A stretch of 20,136 bases of DNA. It comes from a virus. The DNA lies in IMG/VR virus record IMGVR_UViG_3300022937_001507, positions 1 through 20,136 of that record; one strand, written 5' to 3'. Positions 14,776 through 19,713 of the stretch are shown one piece after another (the stretch's first letter is position 1; every line of letters begins with the position of its first letter). A program made the position numbers and the translations under genes. The notes below the pieces were generated by a model. It was not told the DNA's origin, searched no databases, and was given only the letters and a program-made list of their open reading frames with translations.

Positions 14776-16526
14776 GTGTCACCTACCTTATATTCACCAT
14801 CCAGAGGACAGTTTAGTTGAAAATCTAGCCCTGCACGTTTGATACATTCAACTGCAAGACTACCGAATTGTTCTGCTTGTTCCTGTGCTACTTCACACTG
14901 AAATTCATCGTGAACATTGAGAACAAATTTAAAATTTATGTTATAAGCTTTAGCATACTTATTTAATAAGACTAATGCTTGCTTCATCACTATCGCACCA
15001 GCCGATTGTAGTAATACATTTAGTGCTGCGTGTTGTGACCTGATGTTTAATCTTCGTCCATCGAGACCCCTAATCCAACCCTTTGAGCTCTGCGAGTCAA
15101 CTCGTCTTCGTAATGTTTTAAGTGCTGGCGTATTATCAAGGAATTTTGCTTTAAGTGCAGCACCTGCTTTCGCACTTCCTCCCACGATTGTTCCGATTTT
15201 GGTGTCTCCAGCTCCATATAGGAAGGCATAGATGAAAGTTTTTGCTGAATCTCTTGATTGAAGTCCTGCAGCCATTTGATTTGCTGTGTGAATATCTCCA
15301 TTTAATATCTCCTCAGTATAAGTATTATCATTCATATAGTGTGCCAGCATCCTAAGTTCTAGACCGCTAGCATCAACACCTACTAGTTTCTTACCTTCAG
15401 GTACTATCCACAACTCTCTACATTCTTCGCCGTAAGGTGAATATATTGCTGGGACCTGAGCTAGATTAGGACTATTATGTGTCATCCTACCTGTTAAAGC
15501 CCCGCAGCTATTTACCTTTCCGTGTATCCTACCATCTTCTTTCATAGCTTCAATCCAAGACTGGACCATAGCAACTCTCTTTGTGATGGTAAGATACTCA
15601 ACTATGAGTTTGACTTCAGGTATGTTCACATTCTCAAGCACTTTCTCATTCACTATCGGATTACCTTTATCAGTAAATTCCTGGGGTTCCCAGCCAAAGT
15701 TCTGCAAGTATCTAGCTATCTGCTGTCTACTCCCAAGATTGAACTCTGGATATTCTATGCAACCCCAAGTGCCATCCTCATAGTGAGCACCTCTATCTAA
15801 CTGTTTTTGATAGGCCACTGTAGGTGTCCCATCTTTCTTGTATTTATTCTTTATATCAGTTAATTCTTTCCAGACAGGTAATGGAGTAAATACTTTTCTT
15901 ACCTCTCTTTCTATCTCAGTAACCTTATCTTTCAATTCAGCTAATAATAGATGAGCTTTTCGTTCGTCGAATAAGACTCCAGTGTCTTCTTGCTCTTTAA
16001 TTATTAATGCTACTTGATGTTCTAACTCTACTGATTGTTCAGTAAAATCTTCTAACTGCACTCCCAATCTAAAGAATAAATCTTTTAATACTCGTACATC
16101 TTGCTGACAATACTCTAACATCTCTTGATTGAACGCAGCCCAAGGATTAGAATCTTTACCGTGCTTCTCTAAGAAATCTTTTACATAGTCATCCTTGTAG
16201 TTACCTACCCTTTCACCCCAAGCCTTTAACGAATGACCTCCTTCCAAGGAAGGGTTAACCAATCTTGATAAGACAAGAGTGTCTCGAATAGGATAATCCC
16301 AACTGTAGCTACTAAGCTTACGCAGAACAGGAATATCAAAACCAATAATGTTGTGTCCAACAAGAAGTGAACACTTTTCTGTGTCCAACCATTTCTTAAA
16401 GTTTGCACTTGCATCCTCCCCGATAAAATTATACATTGTGTCGTCATTTGAAGTCATAGCACATATACAGTGTATTGTAGTAGCATCTAGACCATCAGTC
16501 TCTATATCAAAAAATACTGTACTCAT
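14757..16526 (-). CDS. family A DNA polymerase with 3'-5' exonuclease
   Basis: 589 residues. The exonuclease domain shows Asp7 and Glu9 (FDIETDG), Asp64 (GHNIIGFDIP) and Tyr139...Asp143 (YCQQD), a full DEDDy set. The polymerase domain shows motif A with Asp385 (VGVDASGLELRM), motif B Arg425-Lys429-Tyr433-Tyr437 (RDSAKTFIYAFLYGAG) and motif C His539-Asp540-Glu541 (VHDEF). Tyr433 sits at the site known as 762 in E. coli Pol I (526 in T7). It is shorter than T7 gp5, and I see no room for the thioredoxin-binding loop. An AAAGGAAAT site overlaps the primase stop, and the start shares one base with it, so the two replisome genes are coupled. Confidence 0.95.
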   Translation of the reverse strand: MSTVFFDIETDGLDATTIHCICAMTSNDDTMYNFIGEDASANFKKWLDTEKCSLLVGHNIIGFDIPVLRKLSSYSWDYPIRDTLVLSRLVNPSLEGGHSLKAWGERVGNYKDDYVKDFLEKHGKDSNPWAAFNQEMLEYCQQDVRVLKDLFFRLGVQLEDFTEQSVELEHQVALIIKEQEDTGVLFDERKAHLLLAELKDKVTEIEREVRKVFTPLPVWKELTDIKNKYKKDGTPTVAYQKQLDRGAHYEDGTWGCIEYPEFNLGSRQQIARYLQNFGWEPQEFTDKGNPIVNEKVLENVNIPEVKLIVEYLTITKRVAMVQSWIEAMKEDGRIHGKVNSCGALTGRMTHNSPNLAQVPAIYSPYGEECRELWIVPEGKKLVGVDASGLELRMLAHYMNDNTYTEEILNGDIHTANQMAAGLQSRDSAKTFIYAFLYGAGDTKIGTIVGGSAKAGAALKAKFLDNTPALKTLRRRVDSQSSKGWIRGLDGRRLNIRSQHAALNVLLQSAGAIVMKQALVLLNKYAKAYNINFKFVLNVHDEFQCEVAQEQAEQFGSLAVECIKRAGLDFQLNCPLDGEYKVGDTWAQTH

Positions 16527-18118
16527 TATATTTCCTTTAGTCTTCCAGTATCTTTATTATATAACAAATTACCAGCTTTACCAGTCAATCCTGCAAATCT
16601 ATTTTTCATTACACGTAAAGTAGTAGTATTTCTTTCTTGTTCATCTTCAGCTTGTTGATTACGTTCTAAACCTATAACCATATCTGATAATTGAGCGATA
16701 GCTGATGAACCTCTCAATTCTGACAATGACACCTGCCCACCTTCTTCGTGAGATTTACCTACTGGTCTCTTTAAGTGTGAGACAACAAACAGACCTATAC
16801 CAGTCTCTTGTACTAGCTTACGTAGTTTAGTCATTATAGAATCGATAGCTTTACGTTCGTCGGCAAAACCTTCTTGGTCAGATACAACTATTGATAGGTG
16901 GTCCAATATGACCCACTTACAATCCATACCTTTAGTCATAGCTCTGATTCTATTTATTAAGCTATCCTCCGCTATGCTGCCGAAGTGGTCAAACATAAAT
17001 AGACGCTTAGCATATTGCCCTACTGCCTTGTACCACATCTTATGTGTCTCTTCTTTCGAGAACTTATTCTTATAAGGTGGTAAGTGCAATGGAAGACTAT
17101 GTTCGATAGACATAATGCCTAGTGTAGACATCTCGATAGATTCTTCTAGATGTAAGATACCGATATTATCTTCAGTATTATTGATTAGATAATGCTCTAA
17201 CTCTTTAACTACGCTCGTCTTACCCATACCAGTACCACTCGTAAGTGTGACTAATTCTTTAGGTCTAAAACCGTACGTTAATTCATTGAGTGCTAGCCAA
17301 GGATATGGCATAGATTGAACATTCTCTTGAGCTTCTAAGTAAGCCCACGTATCTCCCGCTGAAATAATTCCTTCTGGAGTATATGGCTTAGCATTCCACC
17401 AAGACTCCAAGAATTCCTTACTATTTCCAGACATAAGTAATTCACTTGCATCCTTCATAGTCAGCGTACAGATACGTAGCTTGTTAGGAGATATTATGTC
17501 TCTGACCTTCTTTATTGCCTCTTGGCCCGCTTCGTCTTGGTCAAAGCAAAGTACGACATACTCAAAAGATTCTATAAATTCTAGATTCTCTTTGATGTCT
17601 TTAGCAGCAGACTGTGCTCCATTCTTAAGTGAGACGTGAGCCCACTTACCATCGAACATTTCTGCTATAGACAAAGCGTCTAATTCGCCTTCAGTGATAG
17701 TTAAATATTTACTACCACCATCTTTAAATATATTCTGTCCAAATAATCCTGCTCCTCTATTCGTTCCGCTGATAGCGAAATCTTTAGTTGCTACTTTTCT
17801 TTCTTTGTAGCCTAGCAGGTCTCCTGTCTTTGCATCGTAGTAAGGATAATAGTGTTTATCAATCTTACCATCGGTGCCTTTAGTGACTCTGACTCCATAC
17901 TTAGTCGCAATCTTTCTCGATATGCAGCGTTCTGGGATGTCACTGATAAAACCCCTAACTTCCAATTCTGTTTCCTCCTCGTAGTTATCGTTAATGTTAT
18001 CTGTAGCTGGCTGAAGATGGCCACAACCGAAACACCAGCCGTGACCATCTGAGTAGCGTGACAGATTATCTTTTGAGCCGCACGCTGGGCACGGCTCGTG
18101 ATGTAAGAAATCTGACAT
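16526..18118 (-). CDS. bifunctional primase-helicase (T7 gp4-like)
   Basis: 530 residues. It unwinds DNA at the fork and makes primers. In order: a zinc finger Cys10-x2-Cys13...Cys29-x2-Cys32, a TOPRIM domain with Glu143 (ITEGELDAL) and Asp193/Asp195 (CFDQDEAG), and a RecA-type hexameric helicase with Walker A at 295-301 (GTGMGKT) and Walker B Asp406 (WVILDH). 'VVSHLKRP' and 'LSELRGSSAIAQLSD' (motifs 3 and 4) follow, then an arginine-rich end (LRVMKNRFAGLTG). The zinc finger is present, so the protein should be primase-competent. The start is 9 bases after the binding-protein stop and lacks an AGGAG-type site, so its translation may depend on that of the gene before it. Confidence 0.95.
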   Translation of the reverse strand: MSDFLHHEPCPACGSKDNLSRYSDGHGWCFGCGHLQPATDNINDNYEEETELEVRGFISDIPERCISRKIATKYGVRVTKGTDGKIDKHYYPYYDAKTGDLLGYKERKVATKDFAISGTNRGAGLFGQNIFKDGGSKYLTITEGELDALSIAEMFDGKWAHVSLKNGAQSAAKDIKENLEFIESFEYVVLCFDQDEAGQEAIKKVRDIISPNKLRICTLTMKDASELLMSGNSKEFLESWWNAKPYTPEGIISAGDTWAYLEAQENVQSMPYPWLALNELTYGFRPKELVTLTSGTGMGKTSVVKELEHYLINNTEDNIGILHLEESIEMSTLGIMSIEHSLPLHLPPYKNKFSKEETHKMWYKAVGQYAKRLFMFDHFGSIAEDSLINRIRAMTKGMDCKWVILDHLSIVVSDQEGFADERKAIDSIMTKLRKLVQETGIGLFVVSHLKRPVGKSHEEGGQVSLSELRGSSAIAQLSDMVIGLERNQQAEDEQERNTTTLRVMKNRFAGLTGKAGNLLYNKDTGRLKEI

Positions 18119-18127
18119 CTGACTAGA

Positions 18128-18544
18128 TTATCTATTAAGAAAATCTGCCAACTCTTCATTAGCACCCTTGAAACCAGGAGTGTAATTATCTTCTAGCTTA
18201 ATAGCTGTTAGATACGTAGCAACTCCGTGAGTAGGATGTTCTTTACCTGCCTTCCATAAGACCTCAACCTGAGAGCCTGCACCGAAGTCAGTTCCTACGA
18301 CATTGCCGCTGTTGGTTTGAATCATATCGTCATTGAGCTTGTACTGAGTAGAGAACTTACGAATCTTAATGTCCTTACCAGTCTCAGAATCTTTGACGGT
18401 CCTTACTTTTACACCTGCTTCTTCTAATTTCTTAGCTTCTGCATCATTTAGTGCAATCGTTAGTGTGTACTTACCAGTATCCTCACCATTGAACTTCTCA
18501 GTTGAGTCAAGATATACGTACTTAGCTTCACCTTTTGTAATCAT
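18128..18544 (-). CDS. single-stranded DNA-binding protein (gp2.5-like)
   Basis: 138 residues with AAGGAAAAC before the ATG. The make-up fits the small phage single-strand binding proteins: an N-terminal 'KGEAKYVYLD', strands 'GKYTLTIALND', a basic middle (GKDIKIRKF), and 'GAGSQVEVLWKAGKEHPTHGVATYLTAIKL', which is the conserved core of the marine phage branch. The C-terminus is mildly acidic (GANEELADFLNR), but without the terminal Phe of T7 gp2.5. It lies directly before primase-helicase and polymerase, as expected of a replisome cluster. Its leader holds a possible pseudoknot (18566-18601), so autoregulation of translation is possible. Confidence 0.8.
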   Translation of the reverse strand: MITKGEAKYVYLDSTEKFNGEDTGKYTLTIALNDAEAKKLEEAGVKVRTVKDSETGKDIKIRKFSTQYKLNDDMIQTNSGNVVGTDFGAGSQVEVLWKAGKEHPTHGVATYLTAIKLEDNYTPGFKGANEELADFLNR

Positions 18545-18565
18545 TTTGTTTTCCTTACTAAAATA

Positions 18566-18601
18566 GACATTGCAAAAAAGAGGGCCAATGTCCGACGCCC
18601 T
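18566..18601 (-). promoter_or_regulatory. possible H-type RNA pseudoknot or weak terminator in the leader of the binding-protein gene
   Basis: Read on the - strand, AGGGC (18601-18597) can pair with GCCCU (18585-18581). GACAUUG (18592-18586) can pair with CAAUGUC (18572-18566). The order of the four arms is interleaved, with joins of 4, 0 and 8 bases, which is H-type pseudoknot geometry. The first stem alone, followed by CUUUUUU, also looks like a weak intrinsic terminator. The knot ends 21 bases before the ATG of the binding-protein gene, just above its ribosome binding site. Confidence 0.5.
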
Positions 18602-18665
18602 ATCTTAAGTTAAACCTAAGATATAACTACTACGGCTATATCGTTAGGTAAATAACTTAAGTATA
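18601..18665. repeat. long imperfect inverted repeat between small early genes and the binding-protein gene
   Basis: Left arm 18601-18625 and right arm 18637-18665 pair over about 24 bases with one small internal loop and bulges, around the 11-base loop ACTACTACGGC. Matching blocks are CTTAAGTTA, ACCTAA and GATATA. A 9-base direct repeat TATCTTAAG sits at 18601-18609 and 18664-18672. It could be an RNA hairpin that protects or processes the mRNA, a replication signal, or a remnant of a small palindromic insertion. It fills the only sizeable gap among the early genes. Confidence 0.65.
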
Positions 18666-18667
18666 TC

Positions 18668-18868
18668 TTAAGAGATTGTATCACAATTCTCATCGTTTGT
18701 GTAACTATTTTCTTCTCTGAAAGATTCTTCTTCTTCCATCTTAGATATAGTCTTACTTCTAGACATATTCAGACAGTAGGTACAAGTGTCTAAATATTGT
18801 TTAGTCACTGGGTCCTTCTTAACTGCTTCATATTCGTTCAACAGTTGGTCACAAACCTTGCACTTCAT
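18668..18868 (-). CDS. small zinc-finger-like early protein, 66 residues
   Basis: ATG at 18868 with a GGGGGAAG site. The N-terminus is 'MKCKVCDQLL' and 'DTCTYCLNMS' follows, giving Cys3-x2-Cys6...Cys29-x2-Cys32, a four-cysteine zinc site. The motif 'C.VC...L..YE...KDP.T..YLDTC..C' recurs, from memory, in small proteins of marine phages near replication genes. The C-terminal half is acidic and Ser/Glu-rich (KMEEEESFREENSY). It may bind nucleic acid or a host protein. The start overlaps the gene before it by 20 bases. The end of the gene carries a short inverted repeat (GAGATTGT...ACAATTCTC) just before the long hairpin. Confidence 0.65.
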   Translation of the reverse strand: MKCKVCDQLLNEYEAVKKDPVTKQYLDTCTYCLNMSRSKTISKMEEEESFREENSYTNDENCDTIS

Positions 18869-19469: not shown

Positions 19470-19480
19470 TTTGTTTTCCT

Positions 19481-19566
19481 TGTGATTTAACTATTAGGTC
19501 AAAACATTATAGCTGAGATTCAACTATTAGGGCAAATTGTTTTTTTTGAGGTTTAACTATTAGGGT
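19481..19566 (+). repeat. three 20-base direct repeats at an exact 33-base period
   Basis: Copies start at 19481, 19514 and 19547; the middle one is TGAGATTCAACTATTAGGGC. The core AACTATTAGG is identical in all. Only one to three bases vary elsewhere, while the 13-base spacers are unrelated. A period of 33 is close to three helical turns, so proteins bound there would lie on the same face. Options are iterons of an origin, sites of a regulator, or promoters of a phage RNA polymerase (the end ACTATTAGGG looks somewhat like the T7 promoter end CACTATAGGG). Confidence 0.75.
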
Positions 19567-19587
19567 ATATTAGAATTTCCTAATATA
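19566..19587. promoter_or_regulatory. inverted repeat over the -10 box, possible operator
   Basis: TATATTAG (19566-19573) and CTAATATA (19580-19587) are perfect inverted copies around six bases. The right arm contains the predicted -10 box of the leftward promoter, so a bound protein could block it. Confidence 0.5.
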
Positions 19588-19610
19588 GATAAAAATTTTA
19601 AAAGTTGCAA
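19582..19610 (-). promoter_or_regulatory. sigma-70-like promoter for the leftward early genes
   Basis: On the - strand TTGCAA (19610-19605) and TATATT (19587-19582) are set 17 bases apart in AT-rich DNA. Transcription would start near 19575 and read through the repeats into the first early gene at 19469. The promoter is flanked by palindromes on both sides. Prediction from sequence only. Confidence 0.55.
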
Positions 19611-19615
19611 AAATA

Positions 19616-19647
19616 CAACAAATGTTGAAATAATACAACAGATGTTG
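19616..19647. promoter_or_regulatory. two tandem CAACA-RA-TGTTG palindromes, 20 bases apart
   Basis: CAACAAATGTTG at 19616-19627 and CAACAGATGTTG at 19636-19647 are dyad-symmetric and begin exactly 20 bases apart, close to two helical turns. They lie just above the -35 box of the leftward promoter. They are likely sites for a dimeric DNA-binding protein, as activator, repressor or origin binder. Confidence 0.65.
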
Positions 19648-19673
19648 CAGAAGTGATAAAATCTCAAGATCGT

Positions 19674-19713
19674 TTGTTGTAAAAATGCAACAAGTGTTTA
19701 ATCTATGCAACAG
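19674..19713 (+). promoter_or_regulatory. possible rightward promoter with degenerate CAACA sites
   Basis: TTGTTG (19674-19679), 17 bases, then TTTAAT (19697-19702) form a fair sigma-70-like promoter on the + strand. TTGTTG also pairs with CAACAA at 19688-19693. Degenerate operator copies start at 19688 (CAACAAGTGTTT) and 19708 (CAACAG), again 20 bases apart, inside the promoter. Confidence 0.4.

Follow-up and report, generated by a model that had tools for sequence, protein, structure and literature searches.

A covarying H-type pseudoknot in the ssb leader of a marine phage family, a candidate operator for autogenous control

An H-type pseudoknot was read directly on the minus strand (18601-18565) of a 20-kb phage fragment (IMG/VR record IMGVR_UViG_3300022937_001507; the 20,136 nucleotides analysed are called the window), in the leader of a gene for a predicted 138-amino-acid single-stranded DNA-binding protein (SSB). 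The pseudoknot call was regarded as settled, since nearly all the relatives keep the fold and its position while the letters differ, and this covariation shows, as far as sequence comparison reaches, that the fold is real. The conservation of a fold in which almost all letters have been replaced suggests that the SSB shuts off its own synthesis, and we hold it to be reasonably probable that the element is a translational operator through which excess SSB would repress its own production; we infer action on translation, the SSB as the ligand and repression as the direction.

The 138-aa protein (ssb, 18128..18544, minus strand) is the first recognisable gene of a minus-strand replication cluster, followed by a primase-helicase (16526..18118, minus strand; phrog_239, E = 1.5e-180) and DNA polymerase A and, further on, by a Cas4-like exonuclease, an endonuclease and both ribonucleotide reductase subunits. 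Searched alone, the protein gave no Pfam or PHROG match at E 0.001. Its family produced weak matches to the single-strand annealing protein family in 23/23 members (best 1.8e-5) and to the gp2.5 family in 20/23 (best 4e-4), the PHROG families matched being phrog_112 and phrog_4787. The protein was modelled by AlphaFold with good confidence (pLDDT 85.8, falling below 50 in residues 127-138), and the top solved-structure matches of the model were T7 gp2.5, the Enc34 SSB (ORF6) and DUF2815 proteins (Foldseek E-values of 1.6e-5 for 4jg2, 3.9e-4 for 1je5 and 8.8e-4 for 5odl, with moderate TM-scores of 0.47-0.57). The weak family hits and the matches of the model together indicate a predicted OB fold of the gp2.5/Enc34 type, supporting the gp2.5-type SSB assignment that an earlier note had made from the letters of the window. 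A gp2.5-type SSB is expected to have a disordered C-terminal tail with acidic residues and an aromatic residue at its end; the tails of the family end in ..ETNEFF or ..EELADFLNR and are short and only mildly acidic. No relatives of the protein were found by tblastn in cultured phages, nor in genome contigs. Elsewhere in the window, a 13-bp hairpin or pseudoknot-like pairing at the start of the primase-helicase gene (18015-18059, minus strand) was the strongest in a mechanical scan, repeats of GATTCAACTATTAGG and TGCAACA...TGTTGCA were seen upstream of small early genes (19480-19700), and a strong terminator was located at 19894-19871 (minus strand).

On the minus strand the element reads AGGGC-GTC-GGACATTG-GCCCT-CUUUUUUG-CAATGTCT. 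Stem 1 (S1) joins AGGGC (18597..18601) to GCCCT (18581..18585) in 5 bp, and stem 2 (S2) joins GGACATTG (18586..18593) to CAATGTCT (18565..18572) in seven Watson-Crick pairs and one G-U. Loop 1 (L1) is GTC (18596-18594), or GTCG when the G-U pair is left uncounted; the S1/S2 junction has 0 bases, and loop 3 (L3) is the U-rich CTTTTTTG / CUUUUUUG (18573..18580). The 3' end of the element falls at 18566 when only the seven Watson-Crick pairs are counted, 21 nt before the ssb AUG at 18544, and at 18565, 20 nt before it, when the G-U pair is included; the Shine-Dalgarno sequence (SD) AAGGA (18552..18556) starts +9 nt from the S2 3' end. Read on this strand, the placement in the ssb leader given in the earlier note, its stems of 5 and 7 pairs with a G-U extension, its joins and its 21-base distance were all correct.

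The stacking of the two stems, which is a sum over both and not a computed pseudoknot free energy, amounted to -24.4 kcal/mol, against a mean of -9.9 and a minimum of -21.3 in dinucleotide shuffles, so that none of 60 shuffles was as good. One other site, inside the primase gene, had stronger stacking in a mechanical scan of both strands of the window, and by itself the window pseudoknot is only moderately unusual. Nested-only folding of the same stretch gave -11.0 kcal/mol (S1 alone -7.9, S2 alone -8.6); since the usual pseudoknot penalty is 7-10 kcal/mol, the knot should, by this estimate, win over the nested fold by a few kcal/mol. The window knot is comparatively weak, with an S1 of 5 bp and the SD 9 nt below the knot.

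Relatives were collected by three IMG/VR protein scans, with loci down to ~61% identity to the window protein, and 69 distinct leaders were kept after removing duplicates between scans. The pseudoknot was found in all the distinct ssb leaders except those of a small clade (L007-L009). In L016 the upstream half lay outside the 78-nt frame, and the full leader contains the L010 knot with a hairpin inserted after it; in this leader and in that of L017 the inserted hairpin, with a U5 run, separates an L010-type knot from the SD and places the knot ~40 nt upstream of the AUG, much like that of T4. Whole-leader MAFFT alignments misplaced the stems, as loop and stem lengths shift, and pairs were therefore counted on structure-assigned strands, with controls.

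The compensatory changes that the earlier note had proposed as a check proved abundant in both stems, across 65 distinct leaders. The S2 core occurs as 23 different, always complementary sequences (CATTG/CAATG, ACATC/GATGT, TTGTC/GACAA, ACCCT/AGGGT, GCCCC/GGGGC, GCCAC/GTGGC, GGTCC/GGACC, ACCAC/GTGGT, AGTCC/GGGCT, AGACC/GGTCT, GACCC/GGGTC, AGGCA/TGTCT and others; longer examples are GTTGTC/GACAAC and GAGACC/GGTCTC), and the top 5 bp of S1 as 30 different sequences. Native strands were 99% paired, a value that is partly by construction, the structures having been assigned by a pairing-maximising search, whereas strands swapped between leaders were 53% (S2) and 46% (S1) paired. The shuffles, the swaps and a set of control leaders serve to correct for this bias: in most ssb leaders the best pseudoknot beat all 60 shuffles, and a score of at least 30 was reached by 32/44 thinned ssb leaders versus 0/118 leaders that precede other genes of these contigs (Mann-Whitney p = 8e-24). 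Fitch parsimony on a tree of the nucleotides of ssb and the downstream sequence, with counts inflated where indels shift the register, gave 68 two-sided, 8 one-sided and 1 breaking change for S2 (76 kept to 1 broken) and 115 two-sided, 16 one-sided and 13 breaking changes for S1 (131 to 13). A conservative alternative, the count over disjoint leaf pairs with the same loop lengths, yielded 18 two-sided versus 1 breaking change for S2 and 16 versus 9 for S1 (34 versus 10 in total).

Relatives lacking the pairing, which the earlier note had held would speak against the element, do occur in the L007-L009 clade, and the knot is kept elsewhere. This clade is nested among pseudoknot-bearing relatives, so that the absence is best read as a loss or replacement. 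In the 60 nt upstream of ssb in L007, L008 and L009, a plain hairpin (TGCGAA-CGG-TTCGCA) just above the SD stands in the place of the knot.

Across the family L1 measures 1-6 nt, the junction 0-3 nt (mostly 0-2) and L3 5-20 nt, and many members have an S1 of 9-15 bp. The S2 end lies 8-28 nt from the AUG (median 15), most members have an SD that starts between -4 and +6 nt relative to where S2 ends, the stem runs into the SD in 8/65, and the spacer before the AUG is 55% A. When the geometry was left unconstrained and mismatches were barred, a junction gap of 0 was the commonest outcome (19/43), with scatter where S1 was mismatched, which is weak evidence for a coaxial geometry. Loop sequences are not conserved, and no protein-recognition motif is visible in them. 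Taken together, the compared leaders indicate that selection keeps both stems jointly, with a short L1 and a near-zero junction.

L3 is 58% U across the family, and the earlier note had pointed out that S1 and its U-run might act as an intrinsic terminator, giving a transcription attenuator that alternates with the S2 fold. A sub-clade with a long S1 followed by U8 (e.g. L063, L073) agrees with such a device, as does the finding that in 28/43 thinned leaders five or more of the 8 nt following S1 are T; however, the U-run is not universal, being missing in the other 15/43, deep branches L120, L122, L005 and L104 among them. The two stems have no bases in common and would coexist rather than alternate, and this compatibility, together with the unconserved U-run, disfavours a switch. 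Attenuation would also leave the conserved S2, with its single broken change, unexplained; the loop closed by S1 (L1, S2 and junction) is longer than in usual terminators (11 nt in the window, on a stem of 5 bp), and the window S1 was not picked up by a terminator scan. Attenuation is thus very improbable. Nor does the element fit an intrinsic terminator in the strict sense, a G+C-rich short-loop hairpin with a U-run directly after it, and a terminator or antiterminator switch was rejected as its main function.

The knot was absent from the ssb leaders of HTVC115P-type pelagiphages (24 distinct) and from the T7 gene 2.5 leader, indicating, on the leaders compared, that it is a property of this phage family, in which it was seen before ssb and no other gene; the same knot was not found in the cultured pelagiphages with the nearest primase (HTVC115P, HTVC104P). 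No leader matched Rfam at the curated threshold, STAXI, SAM-II and preQ1-II included, and no description of the element was met in the literature searched, in which subscription journals were mostly not covered; it would be a new structured-RNA family, absent from Rfam.

The leaders of SAM-II, preQ1-II and ribosomal protein S15 are H-type knots at the SD, and the similar architecture here, with the SD at or near the 3' end of the knot, would suit a metabolite riboswitch or the operator of a host protein. A ligand pocket, however, needs conserved loop nucleotides, and here both the lengths and the sequences of L1 and L3 vary; these points, the lack of an Rfam match to either riboswitch class and the occurrence of the element only before ssb make this reading extremely improbable. 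Hardly credible is a structure of the single-stranded DNA, such as a replication or packaging signal, rather than of the RNA. Replication genes do adjoin the element, and STAXI pseudoknots near ssb genes have been discussed as possible DNA structures (PMC2864571), but the constant position relative to the ssb SD and AUG argues against it, as does the strong preponderance of G-U over A-C pairs when the mRNA strand is read (118 versus 6, in a search that favours G-U).

A predicted sigma-70-type promoter (TACACA-17-TACAAT with TG; 18675..18703, minus strand, -10 at 18680-18675) would place the transcript start near 18668, ~65 nt above the knot, and promoters of this type stand at the matching place in relatives such as L063 (TTGACA-17-TAAAAT), L010 (TTGACT-17-TATAAT) and L066. 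A T7-type single-subunit RNA polymerase was found in none of four long relative contigs (36-39 kb, possibly incomplete), whereas the control phage HTVC011P gave one, so that the ssb gene is probably transcribed by the host RNA polymerase. A T7-like phage promoter at GGGCG inside the element, suggested by the AT-rich sequence upstream, was dropped because the relatives showed no such polymerase.

Right below the promoter and above the pseudoknot, RNAfold gave an AU-rich 5' hairpin, a long imperfect palindrome (18604..18661, minus strand), which might stabilise the 5' end of the mRNA or serve as an operator in the DNA. Comparable AU-rich hairpins occur in many relatives and are absent where a tRNA-like sequence lies upstream; many relatives have a different 5' palindrome, of the TAAAGTGATAATCATTATGGTTATTACTTTA type. 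The tRNA-like sequences lie directly upstream of the ssb leader (60-250 nt) in L041, L069, L074, L175, L187 and others, and also at 1336-1422 in L201 and 415-496 in L006. They comprise acceptor-like (GATACAG/CTGTATC) and T-arm-like (GGTTCAAATCC) parts and were mostly uncalled by ARAGORN; that of L201 was called tRNA-Pyl with a CUA anticodon, and that of L006 scored just below the Rfam tRNA threshold. L040, a further relative, has a match to the Type II hammerhead ribozyme (RF02276; 40.2 bits against a gathering threshold of 37) at 588-651 on the plus strand, ~2.4 kb upstream of ssb.

A fold that survives sequence turnover, only before ssb and against the ribosome-binding site, is most simply explained by an action on ssb translation. 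Autogenous repression, for which the earlier note had pointed to the logic of gene 32, is favoured because T4 gene 32 is the only well-studied case of a leader knot of an SSB gene, and there the knot is bound by the gene's own protein. In the proposed mechanism, what matters is that the knot stands against the SD, within the region that the 30S subunit must occupy. Once free SSB exceeded the available single-stranded DNA, it would bind the folded leader, possibly contacting the single-stranded L3 and the A-rich spacer beside the coaxial stems, and would keep the knot closed so that the ribosome could not load. Single-stranded DNA made by replication would draw the SSB off, and the ribosome would then melt the knot and more SSB would be made. 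T7 gp2.5, however, is not known as an autogenous repressor, and no paper linking the gene 2.5 protein to translational repression turned up in the literature searched. The cooperativity of gp2.5 on single-stranded DNA is limited (PMC5686142), which fits a knot at the SD better than a nucleation site far from it; with the knot so placed, a single SSB on it could be enough to block the 30S subunit, and so could the closed knot without SSB.

The main rival of repression by the SSB is a brake working without a ligand, in which the knot sets the loading of ribosomes on ssb or shields the 5' region of the mRNA from RNases. The lack of conserved loop sequence and the position of the knot against the SD, sometimes over it, are compatible with this, and as no recognisable gene of the replication cluster precedes ssb, such a brake would set the level of the ssb product. 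A plain hairpin would suffice for the purpose, yet the two-stem topology, the short L1 and the junction of mostly 0-2 nt have been kept through sequence turnover, and the knot appears only before a gene with known pseudoknot autogenous control in T4; we therefore consider the passive reading unlikely. Against the SSB as ligand count the missing loop motif, the L007-L009 clade, whose members encode the same SSB without the knot and form a natural negative control, the weaker knot of the window with its more distant SD, and the fact that a passive brake would be expected to show the same evolutionary pattern.

The textbook example of a DNA-binding protein controlling its own message by way of a pseudoknot is T4 gene 32, which is known from few phages. 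The unrelated SSB family described here offers over 60 divergent natural variants of a leader knot. The chances seem to us evenly divided that this is a second, independent invention of SSB autogenous control, in which a gp2.5-family repressor would read the shape of an SD-touching knot, in a large marine phage family using the host RNA polymerase, while the sequence drifts freely. By what means an SSB with affinity for any single strand picks out its own mRNA is an unsettled question (PMC535899). If the SSB does bind the knot, the natural variation would show recognition of shape instead of sequence and would open the question to direct test.

Among known systems, the knot of rpsO, the E. coli gene for ribosomal protein S15, also adjoins the ribosome-binding site. 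Its autogenous control works through a pseudoknot in the translational operator (PMC3014915); it is, however, a cellular gene for a ribosomal protein, and homology to the present element is not in evidence. The STAXI motif shares with the element a pseudoknot associated with ssb genes (Weinberg 2010; PMC2864571). STAXI, however, comes in 2-3 tandem copies, often with UUCG tetraloops, near ssb, topoisomerase, antirestriction and integrase genes, whereas the element is a single copy, lacks UUCG tetraloops, occurs only before ssb and has no Rfam match, and is therefore distinct.

The closest likeness is to T4 gene 32. The gp32 proteins of T4 and RB69 bind a leader pseudoknot and repress translation, the T4 knot being bound by its own protein when SSB exceeds single-stranded DNA (PMC535899, PMC3014915). 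Our search recovered the T4 knot (S1 of 4 bp, L1 of 1, S2 of 7 bp, L3 of 5), ending 39 nt before the AUG, only when an S1 of 4 bp was allowed, and missed it at the usual 5-bp minimum. Both cases pair an SSB gene with an H-type leader knot, and the short form in the window is very close to T4 in its geometry (4, 1, 7, 5 in T4 versus 5, 3, 8, 8 in the window). Among the relatives of T4 the sequence of the knot varies, and some, such as RB49, lack it (PMC3014915); the present family likewise shows both divergence and absence. In contrast, sequence homology was not found, the SSB here is of the gp2.5 and not the gp32 type, and many members have an S1 of 9-15 bp. In T4, gp32 nucleates at a distance, on a knot 39 nt before the AUG, and from there binds cooperatively along an unstructured, A+U-rich stretch containing UUAAA repeats until it reaches the SD; the layout here differs, with a distance of 8-28 nt and the SD at the knot. 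Because protein family and layout both differ, the element is no member of the T4 gene 32 type, but it resembles that operator in gene type and fold.
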